From Daejeonella lutea (GTDB lineage Bacteria > Bacteroidota > Bacteroidia > Sphingobacteriales > Sphingobacteriaceae), in the NCBI RefSeq assembly GCF_900168015.1, contig NZ_FUYR01000007.1:1-64000 (forward strand): a stretch of DNA of 64,000 nucleotides. The letters run 5' to 3'. The notes under the pieces are model-generated. The model was not told the DNA's origin, did not search any database, and worked only from the letters and a program-made list of their open reading frames with translations. Positions 8,893 through 26,601 of this stretch are shown here, piece after piece (the first letter of the stretch is position 1; each line of letters starts with the position of its first letter). A program made the translations under genes and the position numbers.

Positions 8893-9326
8893 TCAAAGGT
8901 TGAGCGCTTCGCGCTTAGCTGCCGGCATATTTTAAACGCAAGAACGCAAAGTTTTCGACCTTCTTACTGTGGCTGCTTCGCATCCATTGTCTTGGCGACA
9001 GTTTTTACCACTGAGAGCACGGAGAAAAGGCACAGAGAGCACAGAGAAAAATGGCTATACTTTTTATTACCGGTGAAATACCTCTATTCTGAGTGTAAGC
9101 CTTCGTCTACTCCGTGGTAAAACCCAAAAATTCTCGGCCTCTGCATGCACTCTGCGAACTTGGCGTTAAAGCTTAGAGCGAAGCGAAATCATCAAACGCA
9201 AAGCCAGACTCCGACAATAACGTTCATATCTGCACCTCTGTGCTCTCCGTGTAAAACTCTGTGCCCTCAGTGGTAAAACCTACAGCCAGCCTTTCAAAAA
9301 AATATTCATAGTTTTGCCAACATTCT
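8893..9326. repeat. Repeat-filled gap with CACRGAG-type repeats
   Basis: There is no gene in this 434-bp gap. It holds several copies, on both strands, of a degenerate repeat rich in CACRGAG / CTCYGTG units, clearest at 9008-9052 and 9230-9278. One ends ...CTCAGTGGTAAAA (9266-9278), which serves as an empty-site reference for the palindrome insertion at 26434-26453. The short TTTAAACGCAAGAACG segment at 8931-8946 is the empty-site counterpart of 13601-13637. A TAGTTTTG box at 9309-9316 could be a -7 element for the acyltransferase, but it lies very close to the ATG. Confidence 0.75.
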
Positions 9327-10102: not shown

Positions 10103-10146
10103 TTTCACCGGCCGATGCTGCCTGTACCTGCAACTGTATTCGCTTG

Positions 10147-10271
10147 AGGTTCCTCGCTCCGCTCGGAATGACGGGTCATTTTTTTAATAGAAGGGAGAAG
10201 AAGCGGGCTTCTTCTCCCTTCTATCTTCTCCCAAAAGCGTTCGCCGTCATTCCGAGCGAAGGGAGGAACCT
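10147..10271. repeat. Two-stem hairpin element E1
   Basis: Outer inverted repeats of 28 bp (10147-10174 and 10244-10271, 25 of 28 matching) begin AGGTTCCTC and end GGAATGACGG. Inside is an independent perfect 16-bp stem (10189-10204 with 10207-10222). The inner-stem sequence differs entirely from those of E2 to E4, while the outer arms are shared. This copy lacks the GC-rich palindrome insertion. Confidence 0.85.
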
Positions 10272-13583: not shown

Positions 13584-14095
13584 TACATGCCAGACGCATA
13601 TTTAAACCTGCCTGCCGGCAGGCAGGCGCAAAGAACGTAAGGATTCACTCCGAGTACGCAGAGAATTTTTGAACACGGAGAACACAGAGATTTTTCACAG
13701 AGGGCACAAAGAATAAAACCATACGACTCAGAACCTGCCTACTGGCGGGCAGGCAGGGTAAACCGAGCAAAGCGTTTATCAATTCTCTCCGTGCTCTTCG
13801 TGTCTTCTCAGTGCTCTTGGTGGTAAATTCACACAGCGTTTAGAAAATTCTGCGCTCTTTGCGTCTACTCTGCGGTCTCTGCGGTAAAAAATATTTCACT
13901 ATACCGGCGCGAAGCGCCCTTCACTTCCATAACACAATTTATTTCGGTACTTTTACCCCCATCAAAATCAGTGTCATCCGATAGCTAGCAGATCCTCATC
14001 AATGATACCAGTTATGACCTTCACAATCTCAGTTCTTAATTGCACGTTTCGGTCGTTGTACACTTTCCCCAACAACAAACACTTCTAATTTTCAA
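13584..14095. repeat. Repeat-filled gap with palindrome insertions
   Basis: There is no gene in this 512-bp gap. It contains CACRGAG-type repeats (about 13640-13900), a perfect 20-bp palindrome CCTGCCTGCCGGCAGGCAGG at 13607-13626 inserted between TTTAAA and CGCAAAG, and a 24-bp relative at 13734-13757. From about 13920 to 14095 the sequence is unique and AT-richer and is the likely promoter region for the next gene, but I found no clear promoter. Confidence 0.75.
13607..13626. repeat. 20-bp GC palindrome insertion
   Basis: This perfect 20-bp palindrome is flanked by TTTAAA and CGCAAAG. The same flanks occur contiguously at 8931-8940 without the palindrome, and with a 16-bp version at 21872-21887. 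It reads as an exact 20-bp insertion with no target duplication. Confidence 0.8.
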
Positions 14096-15220
14096 ATGAA
14101 AGTATCCATTATCGGTACCAGAGGATATCCTTATGTTTATGGTGGTTTTGAAACTTTTGTTAAGGAATTAAGTGAACGGCTTGTAAAACAAAATGTGGAG
14201 GTTCATATATACTGCCAGCGGGATCTTTTTAAAGAAAAACCGGAGCAGGTCAATGGAATCCATCTCCATTATATCCCCACTGTTCAAACTAAGTCCTTAA
14301 ATCAGCTAATCCATTCTTTTCTATCGATAGTTCATGCAAGCTGTAGCACTGGAGATGTTATTCTCGTAGTGAATTTAGCGGCGGGTCCGATGGGCTGGAT
14401 ACCAAAGATCACCGGGAAGAAAACAATAATGAATGTGGATGGCCTCGAATGGCTTAGGCCCAAATGGAAAGGCCTGGGTGCCTGGTATTTCAAGTTTGCT
14501 GCTCGCCTTGCAACCAAACTATATGATGTGATTGTGACTGACGCAAACGCAATGCGGGAGGTGTATTTAAACGAGTTTAGCACTGATTCGACGGTTATCG
14601 CTTACGGTGCGCCAGAATTTAAAAAGGCAGATCAATCACTGCTGTCACTATTTAATCTGTACCCCAATGACTATTACCTCATTGTTGGGAGATTGATCCC
14701 TGATAATAATGCAGATCTGATCGTCAAGGCTTTCGCCCGGGCGAACTCAGCAAAAAAACTGGTCATTGTTGGAGATGTACCTTATCGGGACAAATATGCC
14801 GAGGACCTCAAGAAATACGAGACCGACAATATCCGTTTTGTTGGATATGTGAAAGACAGTAATGAGCTGATGGCGTTATACCAGAATTGCTTCGTGTATG
14901 TGCATGGCCATAAATATGGAGGGACAAACCCGGCAATGCTAAAAGCCATGTCTAATAATTGTGCTATACTTGCACTGGATACTGTTTTTAACCGTGAAAT
15001 GCTTAACAATGGTGAATTTGGCGTGTTCTTTGAGGAAAGCGAGCAATCTGTAATAAATGCGATGGCCTTAATTGAATCGGAACCAATACGCGTACAATCA
15101 TTGCAGAATAAAGTCGCTGAAGGCTTAACTGATAAATATAACTGGGATGCGGTTACGCAATTGTACAGGCAGCTGATGGAAGATCTTTCCAATAACAAAG
15201 AGAAAAGCAATTCTCTATGA
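14096..15220 (+). CDS. DUF1972/GT4 glycosyltransferase
   Basis: This 374-residue protein starts with the DUF1972 signature (GTRGYPYVYGGFETF, 7-21), an N-terminal domain found on rhamnosyltransferase-like GT4 enzymes, followed by a GT4 donor domain with VGRLIPDNNADLI near 198-210 and YGGTNPAMLKAM near 273-286. In this subfamily the usual E-x7-E is altered; here GTNPAMLKAM lacks the first Glu. The gene overlaps the following initiating phosphotransferase gene by 4 bp, so it may add the second sugar after initiation. The linkage and sugar are not known. Confidence 0.85.
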   Translation: MKVSIIGTRGYPYVYGGFETFVKELSERLVKQNVEVHIYCQRDLFKEKPEQVNGIHLHYIPTVQTKSLNQLIHSFLSIVHASCSTGDVILVVNLAAGPMGWIPKITGKKTIMNVDGLEWLRPKWKGLGAWYFKFAARLATKLYDVIVTDANAMREVYLNEFSTDSTVIAYGAPEFKKADQSLLSLFNLYPNDYYLIVGRLIPDNNADLIVKAFARANSAKKLVIVGDVPYRDKYAEDLKKYETDNIRFVGYVKDSNELMALYQNCFVYVHGHKYGGTNPAMLKAMSNNCAILALDTVFNREMLNNGEFGVFFEESEQSVINAMALIESEPIRVQSLQNKVAEGLTDKYNWDAVTQLYRQLMEDLSNNKEKSNSL

Positions 15221-16614
15221 CGAGACCTTACTTTTTATACAATAGCTTAAGATACCTGATCGATACGCCGCTGCTGATCATTGCGTTTTTGCTGGCTGAT
15301 CACTTTTCGTACACCCAGATTGCAGATGGTTCAAATCCATTTCTATTTCCACTGATATCCATTATTTCCTGGTATATAGCCGCCCAGGTTTCCCGTCTTT
15401 ACACTGATTTAAGGTCCAATAAATTTGCCGAAGAGATCATTTACATAATAGTAACCATTATCCTTTTTGCAATATTGCTTACCTCATTTCTCTTCTTTTT
15501 CAGGAATAATATTAATCTGAATAATTATTTTCTTGCCATATACTTTCCATCATTATTTTTATTGATTGTTCCCTTCAAGTATATCCTCAGGAAATACCTG
15601 CATGCTGTTTTTTACAGTGGAAAGCTGCAGGAACAGATTGTACTTGTCGGATCAACCCCGGCCGCTAAAGATTTTTACGACACCATAACTCTTCATACGT
15701 ATTACGGTTATAAATGCATCGGCTTTTTAGATGACGACAAGACCAAAATGAATGGCTGTCCCTACTTAGGAAAAATCGAGGATCTGAATTCCATCCTGGA
15801 GAATAATGAAGTGGCGGAAGTGATCATTGCGCTCCCCAATTCAAAACATCAGCAGATAAGTGCAACGATCGAGATCTGCGACTTTCATGCCACCCGGCTC
15901 AGAATGATTCCCGACCTTTACCTGTATGCAGCCAGTAATATCAGCATCAACACAATCGGCCTGCTACCGGTAATAAATTTACGCTCACTTCCCCAAGACC
16001 GCTGGACCAATAAATTACTAAAAAAAGCATTTGACGTTAGCTTCGCTTTATCATTTTTCATCCTGATTGGCTGGTGGTTCATGCCGCTGATAGCCTTAAT
16101 GATAAAATTGACATCAAGAGGGCCTGTATTCTTTAAACAGGAGCGTTGGGGACTGAATAATAAAAAAATAATCTGTTATAAGTTCCGAACTATGTACCAC
16201 GGCAGTTCAGAAACAGATGAGAAGGGCGGCTTTTTACAGGCCACAAAAAACGACAGCCGGGTAACGCCTATAGGTAGATTCCTGAGGGAGTGGAACATCG
16301 ATGAATTTCCCCAGTTTTGGAATGTTCTATTGGGCAATATGTCGGTAGTAGGCCCAAGACCACATGTAACACCACTGAATATCTCATCCATCCAGCATGT
16401 AGATCGATACATGCTCCGACACCTTGTTAAGCCGGGAATCACAGGCTGGGCACAAGTCAATGGTGCCAGGGGTGAAACTTCTGCTCCTGGTGCGATGCAG
16501 CGACGCGTTAATTACGACCTTTACTACATTCACAGCTGGACATTTTGGATGGATTGCCAGATTGTACTTCAAACCGTTATCAATACCATCAAAGGAGATC
16601 AGGATGCATATTAA
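15217..16614 (+). CDS. Undecaprenyl-phosphate glycosylphosphotransferase (WcaJ type)
   Basis: This 465-residue polytopic protein starts repeat-unit assembly by transferring a hexose-1-phosphate from a UDP-sugar to undecaprenyl phosphate. Four N-terminal spans are visible (within about 1-130), then a Rossmann-like domain (VGSTPAAKDF near 145), a further hydrophobic segment at about 270-295, and the C-terminal sugar transferase domain with KFRTM at 322-326, DEFPQFWNVL (catalytic Asp-Glu) near 360, VVGPRPH and KPGITGWAQVNGARGE near 405. Length and layout match WcaJ/ExoY-long forms. It overlaps both neighbours. The usual substrate is glucose or galactose; I cannot choose. Confidence 0.92.
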   Translation: MTRPYFLYNSLRYLIDTPLLIIAFLLADHFSYTQIADGSNPFLFPLISIISWYIAAQVSRLYTDLRSNKFAEEIIYIIVTIILFAILLTSFLFFFRNNINLNNYFLAIYFPSLFLLIVPFKYILRKYLHAVFYSGKLQEQIVLVGSTPAAKDFYDTITLHTYYGYKCIGFLDDDKTKMNGCPYLGKIEDLNSILENNEVAEVIIALPNSKHQQISATIEICDFHATRLRMIPDLYLYAASNISINTIGLLPVINLRSLPQDRWTNKLLKKAFDVSFALSFFILIGWWFMPLIALMIKLTSRGPVFFKQERWGLNNKKIICYKFRTMYHGSSETDEKGGFLQATKNDSRVTPIGRFLREWNIDEFPQFWNVLLGNMSVVGPRPHVTPLNISSIQHVDRYMLRHLVKPGITGWAQVNGARGETSAPGAMQRRVNYDLYYIHSWTFWMDCQIVLQTVINTIKGDQDAY

Positions 16615-18322
16615 GAAGAAATTCAGCTATCAGCTATCAGCTATCAGCTATCAGCCCTCAGCCTTCAAGTTTGTGTTTTCAGCATTCCTGTTTCAGCTCT
16701 TGACTATTAGCATTATCCTTTTAGAAACAAAAAGCTCGACGGCCCAAATAGTTTGGGAAGACCCTAAAAATTCTATTCATCAGTTTTTATCCAGACAGGC
16801 CCAGAAAGGTAATATTGAGATTACGGATTTCATACTTCCGTTAAGCCGAAAGGAAATTGCTGCAGATCTAGCTATCCTGAAGGATTCAGTGCACAAATTG
16901 TCTGCAACTGAACAAAAAGAGCTGGACTTCTACCTGCGGGAATATTCAGAATTCAGCGGGCGGCCAGATGACACCACAACTTTCTTAAAAAAGGACCCGG
17001 CCGGCCGATGGAGGTTCCTCTCTGTCGATACCCGGGATTTCCTGGTGCGAGGTGATCCTGTAATAAGCCTCGAAACTATCCAGGGCAGAGAAAAAAGCAT
17101 TATAAAGAATGCTGCAGGTATCCGCTTCTGGGGCCATGTCGGGAAAAGATTCGCGTTCCAGGCATACTTTGCAGACATCACCGAAACAGGTAAAGGGATA
17201 GACACGGTTAAACAGTTTACAAACGAAACCGGTATCGTACGGACTGCCAATGTAAATCCAGATGCCAAAACTTTGAATTATACAGAGCTACGGGGAAACC
17301 TTGCTTATAACTGGAATAATGGTTCTGTCAGTTTTGGAAACGACCAATTGCTTTACGGTTATGGCGAGAACGGCCGGATCATCTCCTCCGATAAAGCGCC
17401 AGCCTACCCTTTCCTGCGCCTTGATTACCAACCCTTGAAATGGTTCCGCTTTCACTATGCTCATTCATGGCTGCAATCAGGTATCGTAGATTCAAATAAA
17501 AGCTACCCAAAAGGAAATACGATCTATGGTGATGAACGGGAAATTTACCGACCCAAATTTATGGCTACCCATAGCTTTAACTTCTTTCCATTAAAAGGCC
17601 TCGCTTTGAGTATCGGCGAATCAATGGTGTATAGCGACCGCCTGGATGTAGGATATCTCATACCTGTAATGTTCTTCAAAGCATACGACCAATATGCCAG
17701 CAGGTATAAGATCAACTCCGGATCTAACGGACAATTTTTCTTACACGCGAGCTCCCGGAATCACATTCAGCGAACGCATTTATATGGCGGCCTTTTCATC
17801 GATGAAATCCGTCTCTCAGAAGTTTTTAATAAGGCTAAAAGCAGGAATCAAATAGGATTTAACCTGGGTGCTTCGGTCACGGATGTGCTTATTCCCTATT
17901 TAACACTGGGCATTGAATACACCCGGATCAATCCATTCGTTTACCAGAATTTAATTCCTGCCCAGACATACAGCCATCAAAATTATACTCTGGGAGACTG
18001 GATCGGGCAAAATGCTGACCGGACGACGGCCTGGGTGAAATATAATCCTATGCCGCGCTTAACGACCAGCATCCAGCTCAACTACACCCGCAAAGGCGAA
18101 GACGGCAGCCTGGAAAACCAATATTATGCCGAACCGCAGCCCAAATTTCTTGCGGGCAATGTGACTACTCAGAAGCAAATGCTTATCGAGGTTAAATACG
18201 AGATCATCAACCAGCTGCGGGTCAGAGGATCATACCTCAAACAGGCCGGGATAATCCGGCCGGCAATGCAGCCGAAAGCGGTAGCGAATGAGATTAGGTT
18301 GGGAATTTCGTATGGGTTTTAG
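16604..18322 (+). CDS. Wzi-like capsule assembly outer-membrane protein
   Basis: The 572-residue product begins MHIKKK (ATG at 16604, overlapping the previous gene by 11 bp) with a signal peptide ending near SSTAQ (about 44-48). The rest alternates aromatic and charged beta strands (GNDQLLYGYGENG, FLRLDYQPLKWFRFHYAH, IGFNLGAS, LGIEYTRINPF) and ends IRLGISYGF with a terminal Phe, as expected for an outer-membrane barrel. It fits the Bacteroidota branch of the Wzi family, which holds capsule or O-glycan at the surface. Residues 7-20 are encoded by a 7-bp tandem repeat, so a change in repeat number would break the frame. The export and chain-length genes follow. Confidence 0.78.
   Translation: MHIKKKFSYQLSAISYQPSAFKFVFSAFLFQLLTISIILLETKSSTAQIVWEDPKNSIHQFLSRQAQKGNIEITDFILPLSRKEIAADLAILKDSVHKLSATEQKELDFYLREYSEFSGRPDDTTTFLKKDPAGRWRFLSVDTRDFLVRGDPVISLETIQGREKSIIKNAAGIRFWGHVGKRFAFQAYFADITETGKGIDTVKQFTNETGIVRTANVNPDAKTLNYTELRGNLAYNWNNGSVSFGNDQLLYGYGENGRIISSDKAPAYPFLRLDYQPLKWFRFHYAHSWLQSGIVDSNKSYPKGNTIYGDEREIYRPKFMATHSFNFFPLKGLALSIGESMVYSDRLDVGYLIPVMFFKAYDQYASRYKINSGSNGQFFLHASSRNHIQRTHLYGGLFIDEIRLSEVFNKAKSRNQIGFNLGASVTDVLIPYLTLGIEYTRINPFVYQNLIPAQTYSHQNYTLGDWIGQNADRTTAWVKYNPMPRLTTSIQLNYTRKGEDGSLENQYYAEPQPKFLAGNVTTQKQMLIEVKYEIINQLRVRGSYLKQAGIIRPAMQPKAVANEIRLGISYGF
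16624..16665. repeat. Heptameric tandem array 5, inside a coding region
   Basis: Four perfect CAGCTAT units (16624-16651) are followed by CAGCCCT and CAGCCTT. The period of 7 is not a multiple of 3, so gain or loss of a unit would frameshift the Wzi-like gene seven codons after its start. Confidence 0.88.
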
Positions 18323-18332
18323 ACGCCCAATC

Positions 18333-18360
18333 TCCCCCGCTGGCGGGGGTAGGGGGTGGA
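18333..18360. repeat. 28-bp dispersed hairpin repeat, copy 2
   Basis: Identical to 274-301. It sits 10 bp after the stop of the Wzi-like gene and upstream of the export-gene promoter. The 7-bp GC stem could act as a weak terminator, but there is no T-run behind it. Confidence 0.8.
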
Positions 18361-18396
18361 ATACGTTTAAACTGACAAACAATCACCCAGTTCGCG

Positions 18397-18416
18397 TTAA
18401 ATGCATAAGCATTTAA
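18397..18416. promoter_or_regulatory. Palindromic candidate operator
   Basis: A perfect 8-bp inverted repeat TTAAATGC / GCATTTAA is separated by 4 bases (ATAA). It sits just upstream of the -7 box at 18421-18428, in the -33/-7 spacer, and is therefore well placed to be a repressor or activator site for the SLBB/Wzz genes. No regulator gene is present in the window. Confidence 0.5.
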
Positions 18417-18420
18417 TAAT

Positions 18421-18428
18421 TATATTTG
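18421..18428 (+). promoter_or_regulatory. Bacteroidota-type -7 box (TATATTTG)
   Basis: A perfect match to TAnnTTTG 28 bp before the ATG of the SLBB export gene, giving a leader of about 20 bases. The -33 partner is weak (TTAA at 18397-18400). This is the best placed promoter box in the plus-strand block. Confidence 0.5.
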
Positions 18429-18455
18429 CATTTATCATCAATTAGAATTGCTTTC

Positions 18456-20786
18456 ATGCGCATCAAATTCATTCTTTATATACTTCTTGCCGGACTGATC
18501 TTTTCCTTTCAGCCCGCATCAGCCCAAAGCTTCTCCCTCGACCAGATCCAAAATGTAAAAGTAAGCCAGCTATCGGATGCTCAAATAATCGAGGCATGGA
18601 AGAAAATCCAGGAACTGGGCCTGTCTGAACAGGATGCCTATAAATTAATGGAGCAGAAGGGCATGGATCCAATAGAGGTGAATCTCTTTAAGCAGAGAGT
18701 GAGTCTTTTAGGTTTAAATAAAAGTGGCGCTAAAGTAACAAGCGGTCCTCAAAAGCCTGATATTGACTTCCGACGGGATACTGTTATAATTGCGCAGAAA
18801 CCAGTTGCAGTTCCGCCTGCGAAAGTCACAGCCGATGCTCCTCTTAGCATCTACGGTACTGATTTCTTTAATCAGGCAAACCTCAAATTTAATCCCGATT
18901 TCAATGTCGCTACTCCCAAGGGTTATGTTATTGGCCCCGGAGATGAACTCATTATTCTTTTAACAGGTTTAAATGAAAGCACGCAAAGAACGAGGGTCAG
19001 CCCGGAAGGGAATGTCCAGGTTCAGTATGCAGGTATTACCTATGTTAATGGATTTACCATTGAGCAAGCTACAACCCTTCTCAGAAATAAAATGGCGAGG
19101 ATATACCCGGCTTTAAATGGCGGCCAGACTCAGCTTGCAGTAAACCTCGGCAATACGCGGACAATCAAAATTACACTTGTTGGAGAAGTTAAAACACCTG
19201 GTTCATATACTATCTCTTCCTTGTCTACCCTTTTTAATGCCTTATATCTATCAGGAGGACCAAATATCAACGGAACGCTCCGAAACATAGAGATCATTCG
19301 TAATAATAAAGTCTACCGAACAGTGGACTTTTATGCCTTTTTGCAGAACGGCTTGCTTGACGGAAACATCAGGTTGCAGGACCAGGACGTAATTAACTTC
19401 CCCGTTTACCAGAAAAGAGTAGCAATCGACGGTGAGGTGAAACGTCCAGCCATCTACGAACTTAGAGCAGAAGAACAGCTAGATGACCTGATTCGCTATG
19501 CAGGCGGATACACCGACATAGCCTACCGTAGTATAGCTAAGATCGACCAGATCAATGAACTGGAGAGAGAAGTCAAAGATATCCCATCTAATCTTTTCTC
19601 TAATTTCGTGCCGCGCAATGGAGATAAGGTAACGATAGGATCTATTCAAAACAGGTATGCTAACCGGGTTGTTCTTGAGGGAGCCGTCAACCGCCCTGGA
19701 CCTTATGAATTAAGTGCGGGTCTTAGTCTTGCCGCTTTGCTAAAAAAAGCTGAAGGATTAAAACCGGAGGCTTATATGGAAAGAGGCTACATAAAAAGAA
19801 CACTGCCGAATCTAGATAAGGAGCTTATTCCCTTTGTGCCATCAGACATAATTAATGGCCGAACGGACATTCCTTTACTAAGGGAAGACTCGATTGTAGT
19901 GCAGAACCGTGCTGAATTTATGACGGATCAGTATGTAACTATTGGCGGAAATGTCCGGAACCCCGGACCAGTAATCTACAGAAAAGGCATGAAGCTTGCA
20001 GATCTGATCGCTATTGCCGGTGGCCTGAATGAACAGGCTGCAGGTCACCGGGTTGAAATTGCAAGGATCATTAAAAATAATACCGATAGTGTCGCCAACC
20101 AGCTTGTTGAAACATTCAATGTCGATCTGACCAGCAGTAACCAAGACCTGGAGCTGCAGCCTCTTGATTATGTCACGGTTCCCCGACTGGTAAATTTCAG
20201 GCCACTGGGCAATATCAGTATAAGGGGCGAAGTTTTGTTCCCCGGAGAATACGCAGTCCAGAAAAGGGATGAAACGGCCCAGGACTTTATACAACGGGCA
20301 GGGGGACTAAGTCCTTACGGATCGTTAGAAAGTGCACAGATCTACAGAAATGGTGTACGGGTCAATCTTGACCTGACGAAATTAAATGTAAACGACAAGA
20401 GCAATATTCTCTTACCGGGCGACAGTATTTTTGTGCCAAGGATCATCTCCTTTGTACAGGTGTCCGGCGCAGTTAATAATCCGCAATACATTAGCTACCT
20501 GGGCAGCAGGTTTAAATATTATATAAATGCAGCGGGAGGAGCTTTAGAGGATGCCCGGCTTAAAGGAGCGTTCATTCAATATCCGGACGGCTTAAATAAG
20601 CCCGTTCGCAATTTCCTGTTCTTCCGCATCTATCCCTCAGTTAAACCTGGCAGTACGATTTCCGTCCCGAAAAAGAATCCGGATTTGAAACTTAAACTAG
20701 GGTTCGCTGAAATATCAGGTATAATTTCCGCCATTACCGGGCTTGTGGGCTTGATTGCTATCGTTTATACCAATACTAAACCCTAA
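18456..20786 (+). CDS. SLBB-domain polysaccharide export protein (Wza-like)
   Basis: The 776-residue product has a signal peptide (ILLAGLIFSFQPASA, cut near residue 24), then a helical QLSDAQIIEAWKKIQELG region, the poly-export domain opening with GYVIGPGDELIILLTG near residues 155-170, and several successive SLBB domains, each marked by a G-x-V-x-x-P-G-x-Y pattern (VGEVKTPGSYTI, LEGAVNRPGPYEL, IGGNVRNPGPVIY, IRGEVLFPGEYAV). A C-terminal hydrophobic segment ends LVGLIAIVY. It probably forms the periplasmic/outer-membrane export conduit. At 776 residues it is about twice the size of E. coli Wza, as is common in Bacteroidota. The start was chosen at 18456 (MRIKF). The Wzz gene follows after 1 bp. 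Confidence 0.92.
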   Translation: MRIKFILYILLAGLIFSFQPASAQSFSLDQIQNVKVSQLSDAQIIEAWKKIQELGLSEQDAYKLMEQKGMDPIEVNLFKQRVSLLGLNKSGAKVTSGPQKPDIDFRRDTVIIAQKPVAVPPAKVTADAPLSIYGTDFFNQANLKFNPDFNVATPKGYVIGPGDELIILLTGLNESTQRTRVSPEGNVQVQYAGITYVNGFTIEQATTLLRNKMARIYPALNGGQTQLAVNLGNTRTIKITLVGEVKTPGSYTISSLSTLFNALYLSGGPNINGTLRNIEIIRNNKVYRTVDFYAFLQNGLLDGNIRLQDQDVINFPVYQKRVAIDGEVKRPAIYELRAEEQLDDLIRYAGGYTDIAYRSIAKIDQINELEREVKDIPSNLFSNFVPRNGDKVTIGSIQNRYANRVVLEGAVNRPGPYELSAGLSLAALLKKAEGLKPEAYMERGYIKRTLPNLDKELIPFVPSDIINGRTDIPLLREDSIVVQNRAEFMTDQYVTIGGNVRNPGPVIYRKGMKLADLIAIAGGLNEQAAGHRVEIARIIKNNTDSVANQLVETFNVDLTSSNQDLELQPLDYVTVPRLVNFRPLGNISIRGEVLFPGEYAVQKRDETAQDFIQRAGGLSPYGSLESAQIYRNGVRVNLDLTKLNVNDKSNILLPGDSIFVPRIISFVQVSGAVNNPQYISYLGSRFKYYINAAGGALEDARLKGAFIQYPDGLNKPVRNFLFFRIYPSVKPGSTISVPKKNPDLKLKLGFAEISGIISAITGLVGLIAIVYTNTKP

Positions 20787-20787
20787 G

Positions 20788-21840
20788 ATGAAGCAGGATC
20801 AGTACCCTTACGAACCGGAATTTTCTTTCAAGCAGGTTATACTTAAACGCCGGGAAGATCTCCAGCTGCTTTGGAAACACCGCTACACGTTGATTATCGT
20901 CGGGATCATAGGTGCCGGTTTGGGGGCGTTATACGCCTGGACGCGTCCTATAACGTATACCGCGAAACTGACCTTTGTCGTGGAAGAAGGCGGAGCGGGA
21001 GGAGGTTCCCTTTTATCCGGTCTTGCAGGCCAGTTCGGAATTGATATCGGGGGTATGTCCGGCACTGGGGGTGTCCTGGCGGGTGATAACGTGCAAGAAC
21101 TGTTGCGCAGCCACAAGATGATTAAAAACACCCTGCTGACGCCATTTGGTGAAAAAAGTACCTTAAGCCTTGCGGATAAGTATGCGGAAAGCGCTGAGAT
21201 GAGTAAGCGCTGGGCAGATAAATATAATAGCGGTAAAACGATTCGATTTCCCGTAGACGACAGCAAATACAGCCGGCTGCAGGATAGCCTCCTGCAGGTC
21301 ATGGTAAAACAAATTACAGAAGAGGAATTATCAGTCGCCAAAACGGATAAAAAATTAAGTTTCTTCGCGGCATCTGTTACGATGGCTAATGAGCAAGTCG
21401 CACAACTCTTCACGACCCGATTGATCGATCAGGCAACACGGTTTTACATCGATACCAAAACCCTCAGGCAGCGTACCAATGTAAACCGCTTACAGACCAG
21501 GGCAGATAGTATCGGAAGATTACTAAACCGCAAAACATATTCAGCATCCGCAGCGAACAGTATTCTGCTGGATGCAAACCCAGCTTACCCAACTGCTAAC
21601 GTTGGAGTGGAATTAAAAGAGCGGGATAAAATGGTCCTCCAGACCATCTACGGAGAAATTGTAAAAAATCTTGAAATTAGCCGAACGATGCTGATCCAGG
21701 AAACTCCTACCTTCCAGATCGTGGATGAACCGGAATTGCCGCTTAAAAAGAACAGGACGGGGTATTTAAAGTCTGTTGTATTGGGGGGGCTGATACTGGG
21801 GTGTTTGTATGCGTTGTATTTGATGTTGTTTAAAAAGTAA
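20788..21840 (+). CDS. Wzz-type chain-length determinant protein
   Basis: The 350-residue inner-membrane protein has one span near residues 35-51 and a second near 328-347, with a large periplasmic part between that contains a Gly-rich stretch (GGAGGGSLLSGLAG near 70-83) and coiled-coil-like helices. This is the polysaccharide copolymerase (PCP) architecture. The C-terminal tyrosine-kinase domain of Wzc-type proteins is absent: the protein ends three residues after the second span, with no Walker motif. It probably sets chain length with Wzy and docks to the SLBB export protein encoded one base upstream. I chose the ATG at 20788 over an overlapping upstream Met. Confidence 0.9.
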   Translation: MKQDQYPYEPEFSFKQVILKRREDLQLLWKHRYTLIIVGIIGAGLGALYAWTRPITYTAKLTFVVEEGGAGGGSLLSGLAGQFGIDIGGMSGTGGVLAGDNVQELLRSHKMIKNTLLTPFGEKSTLSLADKYAESAEMSKRWADKYNSGKTIRFPVDDSKYSRLQDSLLQVMVKQITEEELSVAKTDKKLSFFAASVTMANEQVAQLFTTRLIDQATRFYIDTKTLRQRTNVNRLQTRADSIGRLLNRKTYSASAANSILLDANPAYPTANVGVELKERDKMVLQTIYGEIVKNLEISRTMLIQETPTFQIVDEPELPLKKNRTGYLKSVVLGGLILGCLYALYLMLFKK

Positions 21841-21900
21841 CATCAAACGAGCTACCGCTCGGAATTTTAAACCGGCCGGCAGGCAGGCGCAAAGGTTTTT

Positions 21901-22054
21901 AGAGGTTCCTCACTTTGTTCGGAATGACGACACGATTTTTTTATGGGGAGAGGGGGTGGGAATGAAGCTGCGCTTCATTTCCACCCCCTCTAATAATAGA
22001 CTAGGCCCGTCATTCCGAACTAGTCTTGCCGGAGGCAGGCGCAGTGAGGAATCT
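21901..22054. repeat. Two-stem hairpin element E2
   Basis: The outer arms (21901-21929 and 22006-22054) match E1, but the right arm is interrupted by a 22-base GC-rich insert (22021-22042). The inner stem pairs 21949-21968 with 21972-21991, 19 of 20 Watson-Crick plus one G-T pair, loop TGC. The inner stem is unrelated to E1 except for its tip, which is shared with E3 and E4. Confidence 0.85.
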
Positions 22055-22211
22055 TCTGTCAAGTTAAAATTTTTAAGGGTTCTGTTGAAATGCGATTCCC
22101 GCTTCGAGGGAATACGTGTTAATTAACCACTGAGGGCACAGAGGAAACACGGAGAACACGGAGTACTTTTGTTCTCATTTAAATCTCTGTTTAAACTCGG
22201 TGTCCTCCGTG

Positions 22212-22231
22212 CCTGCCTGCCGCCAGGCAGG
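22212..22231. repeat. 20-bp GC palindrome insertion in a CACRGAG repeat
   Basis: CCTGCCTG / CAGGCAGG with a 4-base centre lies between CTCCGTG and TTAAAAACTCTG. The undisturbed version, CTCCGTGTAAAACTCTG, occurs at 9245-9261. This makes it another filled site of the same insertion family. Confidence 0.78.
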
Positions 22232-22321
22232 TTAAAAACTCTGTGCTCTCTGTGTTAAAAACTATCAGAAATGAGATTCCCGCTTTCGCGGGAATGACAT
22301 GACTAGGTTGGGAATTTAGGA

Positions 22322-22345
22322 GATTCCAGCTTTCGCTGGAATCTG
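22322..22345. repeat. Short hairpin of the ATTCC family
   Basis: A perfect 10-bp stem AGATTCCAGC / GCTGGAATCT with a TTTC loop lies 15 bp after the stop of the minus-strand GT2 gene. A sister at 22269-22297 has ATTCCCGC / GCGGGAAT. It could serve as a transcription end for the GT2 gene, but it has no T-run. Confidence 0.6.
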
Positions 22346-22359
22346 AGTTCCCCCTTTTG

Positions 22360-23292
22360 TTACTTCCACTTCCCCCTAAAAAACCCCCTCAACCCAAGCT
22401 TCATCTCCAGGTAGCTCTTACCCTTAAGTTTCAAAAATTTTAAGATCAACTTTTCCTGCTCCGGATCAAGTTTATCAGAAAAAGTCTCATAGAACTTCCC
22501 AACACAATCAAACTCCCTTTCAAAAAGATCATTATTTTTAAAAGCAGAGCTGATTTCTGATCGAATCCTTCCAAATCTAGTTTTCTTCTCAAGCCCCAGC
22601 AAATCAGTCGCATTATTGTTATGCCTTCGGTAATGTATCAATGCCTCGGGTACCTGGGCAACATTTCCAAAACTATACGCAATCAGTGCTATCCAGGTAT
22701 CATGGGTAATGTGCTCTCCTCTCGGTATCGTTTTAAAATACTTCACCATTTCAGGGTTCATCAGCATGGTACACCCATTTACAAATCCGCCAAAAAGCAG
22801 AGTATTTAAACAGTGCTGATATCCATCCTGGCCCAGTTCATTGCGAAAAGATGTATTCAAAAGTTTCCCAGCCTCATCAACAAGAATCAGGTCCGAATAA
22901 ACCATTGCCGGGGTACCACTTTCTTCTGTAGCCTGCATAGCTCCCATAGCCGCTTCAAGTTTGCGGGGCAGCCAGATATCGTCCTGGTCTGAAAGTGCTA
23001 TATAATGGTCTTGTTGCGCCATTGAAACCGCGTTCTGGAAATTTCCGACATAGCCCAGCCTTTGCTCATTGACATGGAAACGCAGCAGCCCTTTAGCCTG
23101 ATACTTTTCAAGGATCTCCGTAGTACCATCATCAGAGGCATCATCACTAACTAAAATTTCGGCGGGAGATAAGGTCTGTGCGAGTATAGAATCTAATTGT
23201 TCTTCAAGATATTTTGCACCATTGTAAGTTGCCATAGCAACGCTAATGGGAGGGCAAAACTTATAAGGTGAGGACGGTTGATCCGTTGACAT
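22360..23292 (-). CDS. GT2-family glycosyltransferase
   Basis: This 310-residue GT-A glycosyltransferase has the N-terminal nucleotide-sugar motifs VAMATYNGAKYL at 18-29, SDDASDDGT at 49-57 and SDQDDIW at 101-107 (DxD-like metal site), then HDTW near residue 200 and RRHNNNAT near 222, patterns seen in rhamnosyltransferase-like GT2 enzymes. It is the only minus-strand gene between two plus-strand blocks and is flanked on its 3' side by a repeat-rich gap, so it may have been inverted or inserted. A TATTTTTG box at 23364-23357 could be its promoter. Sugar specificity unknown. Confidence 0.87.
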   Translation of the reverse strand: MSTDQPSSPYKFCPPISVAMATYNGAKYLEEQLDSILAQTLSPAEILVSDDASDDGTTEILEKYQAKGLLRFHVNEQRLGYVGNFQNAVSMAQQDHYIALSDQDDIWLPRKLEAAMGAMQATEESGTPAMVYSDLILVDEAGKLLNTSFRNELGQDGYQHCLNTLLFGGFVNGCTMLMNPEMVKYFKTIPRGEHITHDTWIALIAYSFGNVAQVPEALIHYRRHNNNATDLLGLEKKTRFGRIRSEISSAFKNNDLFEREFDCVGKFYETFSDKLDPEQEKLILKFLKLKGKSYLEMKLGLRGFFRGKWK

Positions 23293-23356
23293 TTTGATCG
23301 AAATAAGACTTGTGATACGTCCGGCATTAGTTAAATTGCAACGGAAAAATACCTCC

Positions 23357-23364
23357 CAAAAATA
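23357..23364 (-). promoter_or_regulatory. Candidate -7 box for the GT2 gene
   Basis: On the minus strand this reads TATTTTTG, matching TAnnTTTG, and lies about 65 bp before the GT2 start codon. I see no good -33 element. It sits in the 101-bp divergent gap shared with the GT4 gene that starts at 23394. Confidence 0.4.
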
Positions 23365-23393
23365 AGAATTAAATTAAGCTTGCCGGGATCTCA

Positions 23394-24548
23394 ATGACGT
23401 CTAGAAAATCATTTGTTACCATCTTTCCGGAAGCTGAAAATTTCCACCTTGTAAAAGATGTAGGCCAAATTCCCTTTTTTATTGGTAAAAATGACGAATA
23501 TGATGCTGAACTGATCACTTATAAGAACAATCCCGACTATCCTTACTTAGAAGATGAAGTAAAAGGATTAAAGCTAACATTTATAAAAAACGCTGGGCGA
23601 TATTTCTCTCATCACAAGGCTATCCTTAAATTTCTTCTCTCCTCATCTAAACGGATCGACATCTTAAATCTTTTCCATTTTAAAAGAGAGAACGTTCTGT
23701 ACCTGTTTCTTTATAAAAAGCTTAATCCAAAAGGAAAAACTTACGTCAAACTGGATATGGACATCTTGTTCTTCAAGAATTACAACAGCTTTTTCTTTTC
23801 GCATTACCGCTTAAAAAACCTTCTCTTAAAAAGATTGGCGCGCGTTCATTTCAAGCTGACCGACCTGTTTTCTGTAGAAACAGATGAAGCCGCGGAATAC
23901 CTGGTAAACGTGTATCCTGAATTAAAAGATAAACTGATCTGCATCCCTAACGGCATTGATGATGACTATATCGATCGCAATGTCACCCTAAAAACCTTTG
24001 AGCAAAAAGAGAACATTATACTGACCGTGGGAAGGATCGGGACAGAACAAAAAAATACAGAATTGTTTCTCGAATCGCTGCGAATTGCAGATCTGAGGGA
24101 TTGGAAGGTCTATATTATCGGACCTGTGGAAAGGACTTTTGATCCCTATATAAAATCGTTTTTTGAGGATAATCCCGTCTTGAAGGAGAAGATCATTTTC
24201 ACCGGCAACATTACGGACAGGACAGAACTGTTTGAATGGTATAACCGCGCAAAGATATTTTGCCTGAGCTCACGCTATGAAGGTTTCCCGATAGCATTTT
24301 CAGAAGCGCTGCATTTCGGCAATTATATCATAACAACGCCCCTTTCGAGCTCATCTTTTGTCACTGATCGTGGAAGAACAGGAAGCGTAGCGGGCGGAAA
24401 CCGATTCGAGTTTGCAGCGGCTATTAACAGAACACTGGTACCTGGATTTCTGAATGCAGAACGCTACCAGCAGATACGCAGTTTTTCAAAAAATAAGCTA
24501 TGCTGGCCGGAAATCGTTAAACGAATCCTCACACAGCTCGAGAATTAA
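23394..24548 (+). CDS. GT4-family glycosyltransferase
   Basis: The 384-residue protein has a GT4 donor domain: LTVGRIGTEQKNTELFLESL near residues 210-229 and SSRYEGFPIAFSEAL near 292-306, the E-x7-E site. The N-terminal half is less typical, with a long basic stretch (KRENVLYLFLYKKL) and VKLDMDILFF near 119-128. Cytoplasmic, no signal peptide. Its stop overlaps the Wzx start by one base (TAATG), so the two are co-expressed. Confidence 0.86.
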   Translation: MTSRKSFVTIFPEAENFHLVKDVGQIPFFIGKNDEYDAELITYKNNPDYPYLEDEVKGLKLTFIKNAGRYFSHHKAILKFLLSSSKRIDILNLFHFKRENVLYLFLYKKLNPKGKTYVKLDMDILFFKNYNSFFFSHYRLKNLLLKRLARVHFKLTDLFSVETDEAAEYLVNVYPELKDKLICIPNGIDDDYIDRNVTLKTFEQKENIILTVGRIGTEQKNTELFLESLRIADLRDWKVYIIGPVERTFDPYIKSFFEDNPVLKEKIIFTGNITDRTELFEWYNRAKIFCLSSRYEGFPIAFSEALHFGNYIITTPLSSSSFVTDRGRTGSVAGGNRFEFAAAINRTLVPGFLNAERYQQIRSFSKNKLCWPEIVKRILTQLEN

Positions 24549-25792
24549 TGCAAAAGCAGTTACTAAAAGATTCAGCGGTTTATTTAAGCGGGAGTATAGT
24601 CGTCCAGGTAATGGGATTTGCCGGACTTGTATGGTTAATGAACTATTTGCCTGTAGCAGAATACGGTAAATATATTTACATCGTCGAATTTATCTCAATC
24701 TTTGCCTTTTTTGCAGATGGAGGTTTTTCTCAGTCGATCGTCAAGGAGACAAGCCAGAACCCGGCGGAAATACAGAATATCTACAATAGAGCCCAGTCCT
24801 CACAGATCCTGATCAGCATCATCATGCTCCTGCTGATCATCGTGGTTTCCTTTCCGCTCAACTCAACGGAAGATTTTATTTTCCTGGTCATTTATGGGCT
24901 CAGCGTGGTGTTATCTGCTTATTTTGCCCCAATGCTGGCCATCCTGGTAGCATCTGGCCGCAAGGACCTTATATTTTACAAGGACGTTGCCCTGAGCACC
25001 TTGAAGCTAATCTTTATGGGCCTGGGCATCCTATTCAAACAACCGGTCATCTATTTTATCTTCCTTGGTTTTCTTAATTGCCTGGTGCTATTGCTCCTTC
25101 ATTTTTATATTAAATGGAAAAAAGAGTTCATTTATTTTTTTAGAAACAAAGTTGACCTGTCGAACAGTCTCGCGTTTATGAAGCAGGGACTTTTATTCAC
25201 TACTCTAATGGCTGCGAATATCATCTACAATAAGATAGACATTGTCATGCTCGAAAAAATGAGCGGCAGCGTGGAAGTAGGGTATTATTCCGGAGCCACC
25301 CGTTTCATTTACCCTTTCATGTTCATTTCCACCGCATTCATGACTGCCATCTTCCCTAGCCTGGCAAAACACTCGAAAAACACGGAGAATTTTAAAAAGA
25401 TCCAGTATCTGGCGCTTTATTACCTCGGCGGGATTGGCATTCTTCTCAGCACTACGCTGTTCTTCGGCTCGGATATTATTTTCAGTACCTTCTTTGGAAA
25501 TAAATATGATGAATCGATACCGGTCTTTAAGGTTTTGGTATGGTACCTAGCAATAGTATTTATCTACGGCTCTATCAGCAATAGCCTGGTTGCACAGGAC
25601 AAGGTTAAGTTCCTGGTTTACCTGAACCTGCTTATGATTGCGGTGAACGTCGTGATCAACCTGATGCTTATTCCGGTTTATGGGGCTTTGGGGGCAGCGG
25701 TTGCGACAATTGTTTGCGAGGTTGTAATTTTGGTTACGGCGGGGGGGTATTACGCTTATGTGGGGAGGACAGAATTAAATAAAGAGAATTAG
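24548..25792 (+). CDS. wzx: Polysaccharide flippase (Wzx-like)
   Basis: This 414-residue protein has about 12 membrane spans in the pattern of the MATE/PST oligosaccharide flippase family. Visible landmarks are GFAGLVWLMNYLPVAEYGKY near 19-38, the KIDIVMLEKMSG loop near 228-239 and YSGATRFIYP near 246-255, all common in Wzx proteins. It would flip undecaprenyl-diphosphate-linked repeat units across the inner membrane. It is the only flippase in the window, so it may serve both the WcaJ-initiated and the PglC-initiated oligosaccharides. A repeat-rich 809-bp gap follows. Confidence 0.9.
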   Translation: MQKQLLKDSAVYLSGSIVVQVMGFAGLVWLMNYLPVAEYGKYIYIVEFISIFAFFADGGFSQSIVKETSQNPAEIQNIYNRAQSSQILISIIMLLLIIVVSFPLNSTEDFIFLVIYGLSVVLSAYFAPMLAILVASGRKDLIFYKDVALSTLKLIFMGLGILFKQPVIYFIFLGFLNCLVLLLLHFYIKWKKEFIYFFRNKVDLSNSLAFMKQGLLFTTLMAANIIYNKIDIVMLEKMSGSVEVGYYSGATRFIYPFMFISTAFMTAIFPSLAKHSKNTENFKKIQYLALYYLGGIGILLSTTLFFGSDIIFSTFFGNKYDESIPVFKVLVWYLAIVFIYGSISNSLVAQDKVKFLVYLNLLMIAVNVVINLMLIPVYGALGAAVATIVCEVVILVTAGGYYAYVGRTELNKEN

Positions 25793-25974
25793 CGCTACGC
25801 GGGTGACTGCGTCACAGATTTTTTAACCGCAGAGAGCGCAGAGTTTTTCGCGGAGGACGCAGAGGGGTGGCGGAAATATTGCCTGAAAGGTTCCTCAATT
25901 CGCCTGGCAACGCCGCAATTTAAGCTTATTGAATAAATCGCTTGTTGCAGAGCAATTTACTAAACGTGAGGACA

Positions 25975-26130
25975 GAGGTTCCTCACTACGCCTGCCTGCG
26001 GACAGCCTTGTTCGGAATGACGGGAGCTGTGTATTATTAGAGAGGGGATCAAATGAAGCTGCGCTTCATTTGATCCCCTCTCTCCATTTAAAAAACTCTG
26101 CCCGTCATTCCGAACAACTTGAGGAACCTC
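25975..26130. repeat. Two-stem hairpin element E3
   Basis: Outer arms GAGGTTCCTC...GGAATGACGGG (25975-26024) and CCCGTCATTCC...GAGGAACCTC (26101-26130), the left arm carrying a 20-base GC-rich insert at 25988-26007. The inner stem is a perfect 21 bp (26039-26059 with 26063-26083), loop TGC. Confidence 0.88.
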
Positions 26131-26236
26131 GCCAAAATCTCGGTGCTCTCCGTGCAATCTCCGTGTCCTCGGTGTTATTCTTTCGCTCTACTAGGCGTTC
26201 GCGTAAGTCGAAGGACCCTCTCAATATCGACTGAAA

Positions 26237-26389
26237 GTTTCCTCACTACGCCTGCCTGCGGACAGCCTTGTTCGGAATGACGGAAGCTGTGTATTATTAG
26301 AAAGGGGATCAAATGAAGCTGCGCTTCATTTGATCCCCTTTTTCCATTTAAAAAACTCTGCCCGTCATTCCGAACAACGTGAGGAACTC
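26237..26389. repeat. Two-stem hairpin element E4, near-copy of E3
   Basis: About 150 bp nearly identical to E3, including the same 20-base insert at 26248-26267. The inner stem (26301-26319 with 26323-26341) is again perfect, although it differs from E3: AGAGAGG/CCTCTCT in E3 is AGAAAGG/CCTTTTT here, so both arms changed together. Confidence 0.88.
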
Positions 26390-26433
26390 CTCTAAAACTT
26401 GGTGCTCTCCGTGTGTCCTCTGTGTCCTCAGTG

Positions 26434-26453
26434 CCTGCCTGCCGGAAGGCAGG
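26434..26453. repeat. 20-bp GC palindrome insertion
   Basis: CCTGCCTGCC GGAAGGCAGG lies between CTCAGTG and GTAAAA. The empty version CTCAGTGGTAAAA is present at 9266-9278, so this is an exact 20-base insertion. Confidence 0.8.
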
Positions 26454-26601
26454 GTAAAATGCTATCTCCTTCATTCTAAGCGAAGCGCGGAACTCTCTCC
26501 GTCCACTGCGCGTGCCCGCCTGCCGGGAAAAATCCGAGCTAGCGAGGATCAAAACTTTGCCCTCGTTGGGTTTAAAGTCCGCTTTGCAGTGCCCCGTTCA
26601 A

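Follow-up and report, generated by a model that had tools for sequence, protein, structure and literature searches.

The window analysed here comprises the first 64,000 nucleotides of contig NZ_FUYR01000007.1 of Daejeonella lutea, and it carries several copies of a 20-bp non-coding palindrome, CCTGCCTGCCGGCAGGCAGG (hereafter P), whose window positions were read directly. A first-pass annotation of this DNA had listed copies of the palindrome at five positions and had taken it for a mobile element inserted exactly into other repeats. The presence of P in the window is confirmed, with copies at all five positions: the one at 13607 is exact, those at 22212 and 26434 differ from P by 1 mismatch, and the remaining two are relatives (Table 1). 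No match to P at ≤3 mismatches occurred in 100 shuffles of the window, and an Rfam scan of window positions 8–28 kb returned no match at the gathering score.

Empty counterparts of the filled sites lie in the same window. Among the three that had been named earlier, one is letter-exact, as the junction CTCAGTG/GTAAAA at 9266–9278 agrees in every base with the flanks of the palindrome in 26427–26459. The other two differ from the joined flanks by 1–2 bases: between CTCCGTGTAAAACTCTG (9245–9261) and the joined flanks at 22205 the difference is one T plus one A, and a better empty site for the 22212 junction is GTG/TTAAAAACT at 22248–22263, while TTTAAACGCAAGAACG (8931–8946) departs by one A from the joined flanks at 13607. 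The related 20-base inserts described in the left arms of repeats E3 and E4 were recovered as well; the span TTCCTCACT...TTCGGAATGACG measures 24 nt in the empty arm (21906) and 44 nt in E3 (25979), E4 (26239), and E2 (22008, minus strand), so the inserts of E2, E3, and E4 are all net +20. The 22-base relative reported for E2 is present, with the refinement that it stands in place of 2 nt, and the expectation of an insert length fixed at 20 to 22 bp held only in part, since 20 dominates and both shorter and longer relatives occur (16 and 24 bp in the window). The window also contains several long inverted repeats whose arms are of the TTCCTC...TCGGAATGACG type, at 10140–10270, 21900–22050, and 25960–26400.

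Table 1. Copies and relatives of palindrome P in the 64-kb window, with their empty counterparts.
Feature	Positions	Strand	Flanks or remarks
Exact P copy	13607..13626		Flanks TTTAAA and CGCAAAGAACG
24-bp P relative	13734..13757		First 20 bases (13734–13753) have 3 mismatches to P
16-bp P relative	21872..21887		Flanks TTTTAAA and CGCAAAGG
P with 1 mismatch	22212..22231		Flanks CTCCGTG and TTAAAAACTCTG
P with 1 mismatch	26434..26453		Flanks CTCAGTG and GTAAAA
P-related 20-nt insert, repeat arm E3	25988..26007		TTCCTCACT / 20 / TTGTTCGG
20-nt insert identical to that of E3, repeat arm E4	26248..26267		
P-related insert, repeat arm E2	22021..22042		22 nt replacing 2, net +20
Empty site CTCAGTGGTAAAA	9266..9278	+	Counterpart of the 26434 copy
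Empty site CTCTGTGTTAAAAACT	22248..22263	+	Counterpart of the 22212 copy
Near-exact empty counterpart of the 13607 copy	8931..8946	+	One A shorter
Empty repeat arm TTCCTCACTTTGTTCGGAATGACG	21906..21929	+	Counterpart of the E2/E3/E4 arms

The exactness of insertion was examined over 235 copies with distinct flanks, in either orientation, comprising 203 exact copies of P and 32 copies of a sub-form with A at position 8. From each copy the 20 bp were removed, 10 bases per side were joined, and the resulting 20-mer was sought elsewhere in the collected DNA at ≤1 mismatch. Such a junction was found for 38/235 copies, and for 36/235 when matches overlapping the copy's own surroundings (L051 and L224) were left out. 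When 1–12 further bases were trimmed from one flank, only 0–6 junctions were found (234 copies usable), with a small rise at trims of 7 and 8 bases that fits heptamer repeats, and a control 20-bp deletion within the left flank gave no junction match (234 copies usable). Five of the pairs represent P inserted inside P-like palindromes (L064, L120, L227, L261, and L270). The same 3-mer on either side of P was seen in 0/235 copies and the same 2-mer in 20 (14.7 expected), while identical 7-mers flanked P in 5 cases, again as fits heptamer repeats; these counts show no target duplication, and the target-site duplication that is a feature of miniature inverted-repeat transposable elements is absent from the 235 copies of P. 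In the compared sequences, the DNA on either side of P is otherwise continuous, P lying between two adjacent bases with neither duplication nor loss of the target.

Filled and empty alleles were also compared among relatives. A ~150-bp repeat with inner palindromes occurs dispersed through the window's genus (L038, L039, L043, and L442–L470); congeners have up to 42 matches per genome, and the window's own genome has none. Among the matches listed, 33 were read, two of which (L441 and L457) duplicate L038 and L039, leaving 31 distinct copies; 22 are empty and read through CCGCATA/GAAACATAG or a near variant, and in 9 an insert occupies that site, clearly P or decayed P in seven and doubtful in two (L448 and L465). 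At a single locus, the own-genome copy L012 (C8:411142, 1 mismatch), a matching spacer between two conserved frames was found in 17/19 congeners. Only the window's genome has P there, and the other 17 loci give best matches with at least 6 mismatches; given that these spacers have diverged, the comparison shows the absence of P and not a letter-exact empty allele.

These data bear on the alternative that P is not mobile by itself and that larger repeats containing it are copied, so that insertion is only apparent. In its favour, some copies share longer flanks, as in the ~150-bp genus repeat and in repeat families of G043 and G050. The flanks of 179 usable copies, however, have no common sequence beyond ~3 bases (2 of 181 were left out for flanks too short), the L012 spacer holds P in only one of 18 orthologues, and P is found nested in other palindromes, and we consider this alternative very unlikely. 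P is, on these comparisons, very probably a mobile unit that inserts exactly. The first-pass reading of a mobile palindrome is supported by the checks that had been suggested with it: 36/235 copies regain a known junction after exact removal of 20 bp, filled and empty repeat copies coexist in the genus, and the orthologous spacer differs among relatives (P in 1, without P in 17).

Within the window's own genome (4.03 Mb), P occurs at 23 places at ≤2 mismatches, compared with 0 for a reversed-P control at the same threshold, and its inner 16 bases occur at 36 places, some of them overlapping registers of one site. At ≤1 mismatch, P was found in 19/60 relatives, with 82 places in G043 alone. A scan of 84,980 species genomes gave at least 116 stretches with exact P. 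By hand count, the titles among the matches listed comprise 44 Patescibacteria/CPR, 29 Bacteroidota, 12 Omnitrophota, 7 Nitrospirota-type, 3 Ignavibacteria-type, 3 Planctomycetes/PVC, 2 each of Elusimicrobia, Verrucomicrobia, Chloroflexi, and Desulfobacteria/Deltaproteobacteria, 1 WOR-1, 1 Lindowbacteria, and 8 without a named group; among the 116 matches listed, no title names Firmicutes, Actinobacteria, or Gammaproteobacteria. P is found letter-exact under titles of at least 10 phylum-level groups, and its hosts include the isolates Maribacter halichondriae (complete) and Winogradskyella echinorum. On viral contigs, 33 stretches hold P. Six copies were noted on one 29.5-kb contig of a viral collection (L183, L190, and L191), several of them in repeated hairpins.

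P shows preferences in the sites it occupies. Exact P has A at −1 or T at +1 in 131/203 copies, compared with 0.46–0.53 at other dinucleotides, and P is rarer in long open frames: stop-free stretches of ≥200 aa contain 63/192 of the copies but a fraction of 0.70 of random positions (192 of the 235 copies had enough flank). The sub-form CCTGCCTACCGGCAGGCAGG makes up 35/66 of the single-mismatch members and has C at −1 in 81% of its 32 copies, which are not all independent, as several share a repeat or a genome; this suggests a junction preference of its own, as expected of a separate mobile lineage.

Flanking tags and transposase content speak to a second alternative, in which P would belong to the REP-type elements and owe its movement to an IS200/IS605-like (Y1, RAYT) transposase. 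Enzymes of this kind insert hairpins without target duplication, P is a short hairpin inserted in this manner, and Y1_Tnp matches were found in 4/5 P-bearing genomes searched. The one genome with 0 Y1_Tnp matches, however, is that of the window, with its 23 copies of P, and a GTAG tag abuts P in 2/235 copies where ~3.7 are expected. Both results weaken Y1/RAYT as the mover of P, and we regard it as an unlikely one.

P is over-represented in tRNA-derived sequence. Joined flanks matched a tRNA gene across the junction by BLAST in 9/235 copies, against 0/4297 nearby control deletions, and tRNA matches at positions with nothing removed numbered 7/4316; limiting the test to 48 tRNA genes from loci collected before the GIY-YIG searches described below again gave 9/235 against 0/4297. 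The BLAST junction test was used in place of ARAGORN on joined flanks, which recognized only 1 tRNA across the junction among 170, most of the tRNA pieces being truncated. In the 186 of 235 copies that lie in loci of ≥2.5 kb, P fell within short duplicates of nearby sequence in 42 alignments, many of them plain repeats. Four such duplicates, 252–307 bp from their partner, are tRNA duplicates that enclose a coding frame: in L061, L107, and L194, a tRNA 5′ piece split by P is followed by a frame of ~80–90 aa and then a tRNA, and L040 shows the mirror order with a tRNA 3′ piece. The Pfam domain PF01541 (GIY-YIG catalytic domain) was detected in 4/4 of the neighbouring proteins (E-values of 1e-17 to 8e-14).

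Two further alternatives can be weighed against this arrangement. In favour of P being an assembly or library artefact, many of its matches come from metagenome-assembled genomes, and the duplicates ~250–310 bp apart resembled mis-assembly at first. Mis-assembly of these near duplicates was rejected on reading their sequence, as the tRNA duplicates enclose a coding element, and P moreover has decayed variants and is present in isolate genomes (L055 and L144), one of them a complete chromosome, which makes an artefact extremely improbable. Alternatively, P may spread via an RNA intermediate, by reverse splicing or by copying back into DNA, a route that has been proposed for the SDR elements of cyanobacteria. 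Insertions into tRNA-derived sequence above chance, read as D, T, or anticodon arms, would suit this route; several of the tRNA pieces, however, adjoin a DNA endonuclease gene, and the junctions showed no general enrichment in hairpin loops (folded with DNA parameters), so that an RNA route seems improbable to us.

In 11 loci, a tRNA or tRNA-like piece that adjoins a small GIY-YIG gene is interrupted by P (L040, L061, L107, L194, L311, L339, L402, L408, L409, L418, and L523). ARAGORN predicted an intact tRNA following the gene in L061, L107, L311, L402, L409, and L418, and preceding it in L040. L523 came from a gene-independent pattern (a tRNA D-loop followed by half of P) searched in 390 relatives of G069, a genome titled Patescibacteria group bacterium whose listed relatives come from a search that gives no kinship; the match immediately precedes a GIY-YIG gene, which is followed by an intact tRNA-Thr. 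The 92 distinct small GIY-YIG frames compared come from P-holding genomes, and some of their loci were picked for P. A tRNA lies no more than 400 bp away in 42 of them, and 32 are flanked by a direct repeat, which in some cases is a genome repeat instead of a tRNA copy. A GIY-YIG frame lies within 1 kb of P in 7/235 copies and within 300 bp in 6/235, compared with 0.375% of random positions. A role of GIY-YIG genes as universal companions of P was rejected, most copies of P being without such a gene nearby. Three short GIY-YIG matches occur in the window's genome, all of them outside the window, and two contain an internal stop. Repeats resembling the TTCCTC...TCGGAATGACG inverted repeats of the window flank GIY-YIG genes in L307, L310, and L343.

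Inserts other than P were also found in tRNA copies beside small GIY-YIG genes (L319, L328, L350, L352, L354, L361, L412, L413, L414, L417, and L421). When 11 of these were folded, 10 were more stable than at least 98.8% of 1000 shuffles and that of L413 was not, in a test where insert ends were set by eye, shuffles kept single-base content only, and one of the two inserts of L414 was left out. Both tRNA copies carry the insert in L412 and L417, and L317, L347, and L406 have a tRNA repeat with no clear hairpin insert. Those in the truncated tRNA copies of L350, L354, L361, L412–L414, L417, and L421 are GC-rich and mostly hairpins, some of them nested. In L194 (840–1050), the tRNA copy that follows the GIY-YIG gene has an interruption of its own, and the interrupting sequence, possibly an intron, leads into a frame with what we take to be an HNH-like motif.

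The best overall explanation, which we favour with some reservation, is that P is a mobile 20-bp unit without coding content and would move in trans, a break in the DNA capturing it as a hairpin or blunt duplex. Such breaks might plausibly be made by small GIY-YIG nucleases, among other sources; their involvement in the movement of P is offered tentatively, as a rather doubtful point. A GIY-YIG nuclease settling at a tRNA would leave a spare copy of its own target, and a hairpin in that spare copy would stop re-cutting and disable the pseudo-tRNA. Hairpin insertions may be kept for this reason, the leftover target copy being ruined, a proposition on which we are close to evenly divided and lean slightly against. 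Joined together, these steps would describe a two-part system, in which a GIY-YIG gene enters tRNA loci while duplicating their 5′ or 3′ part, a bare GC-rich hairpin (often P, and this in several phyla) immunises the spare copy, and the same reaction scatters P genome-wide, making it a gene-free, phylum-crossing unit of 20 bp; we consider this full scheme doubtful. P may rank among the smallest known units of mobile DNA.

A number of observations weigh against this account. Mobility is supported in the comparative sense only, no movement event having been observed, and the 36 empty junctions come from the fetched pool, which includes repeats of single genomes, and do not equal 36 independent events. 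Titles of metagenome bins may misassign some of the hosts. General targeting of hairpin loops was considered and rejected, with no enrichment in predicted loops (32/170 junctions above 0.5, against a mean of ~0.21 nearby). With respect to the tRNA context, P may merely survive in dead tRNA copies since these are neutral. Six of the loci with split tRNA copies (L040, L061, L107, L194, L311, which equals L230, and L408, which equals L085) were already known from P, and L339, L402, L409, and L418 were found from the GIY-YIG side only, yet in genomes chosen for P. ARAGORN found no intact tRNA beside the gene in L194, L339, and L408, and both tRNA copies in L408 carry P.

The nuclease link has similar weaknesses. 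The GIY-YIG model was built from four of the six frames lying within 300 bp of P, so that this count is biased and only 2 are independent, and the same four-seed model found no GIY-YIG match in the window. Among the small GIY-YIG genes of 121 relatives of G069, the 30 with the highest scores included 2 with direct repeats, 8 with a tRNA, and none with P in a tRNA copy, which means that at most a subset of small GIY-YIG genes is of the tRNA-duplicating type. The D-loop pattern matched just 1/390 genomes. Finally, G008 holds P at 3 places (≤1 mismatch) with only two long GIY-YIG frames (606 and 465 aa) and no small GIY-YIG match.

We know of no settled answer as to how the smallest dispersed repeats are moved. 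With P, clean filled and empty sites of a single sequence are available across many phyla, cultured Bacteroidota among them, and P supplies a candidate partner, the small GIY-YIG nucleases at tRNA genes, with which the question of the mover becomes open to bench work. Identical 20-mers across phyla need not imply a shared function, a point of relevance to the annotation of repeats, to binning, and to the design of primers or guides in environmental genomes. Neither the 20-mer nor three shorter forms of it had a match in the literature searched, and among the papers listed on GIY-YIG with tRNA, palindromes, Patescibacteria, or truncated tRNA, and on short repeats, none describes P by its title or the opening of its abstract; with most subscription papers lacking from the literature covered, this does not establish P as undescribed. 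P is one sequence in many phyla, and among the papers listed its nuclease-and-tRNA context was not met.

Among known systems, the Allomyces atp6 type is a homing-endonuclease element that carries part of its own target gene. The context of P resembles it in having a small endonuclease gene beside a partial target copy, with the intact copy keeping function. It differs in its target, which is a tRNA gene, in its GIY-YIG domain, and in the hairpin held by the spare copy. The SDR elements of cyanobacteria form hairpins and are embedded in other repeats and in heptamer arrays; they were reportedly described by Elhai and colleagues in 2008 (in volume 18 of Genome Res., from page 1484) as several families. 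SDRs are ~20 nt, dispersed, and possibly mobile (PMC2884548), and SDR5 inserts precisely between bases 3 and 4 of HIP1 (PMC4390886). Compared by description, P is likewise a ~20-nt unit dispersed in many contexts (its 235 distinct-flank copies), with precise insertion and no target duplication; it differs in being one sequence in many phyla with a GIY-YIG/tRNA context, whereas SDRs form several cyanobacterial families.

REP/RAYT systems and CGTC-tagged palindromes are thought to be mobilised in trans (PMC3733652). They are short palindromes (20–40 bp) like P, which differs in lacking the GTAG tag and in the absence of a Y1 match from the window's genome; CGTC-type tags abut P in 9/235 copies (~3.7 expected), which does not define P as such an element. 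The GC clusters and hairpin elements of mitochondria are short palindromes inserted in intergenic DNA (PMC4478555, PMC2800124, and PMC7218506), and intron endonucleases have been proposed as helpers (PMC4478555). These are organellar elements, whereas P is bacterial. By analogy, P appears to work like the SDRs of cyanobacteria and the hairpin elements of mitochondria.

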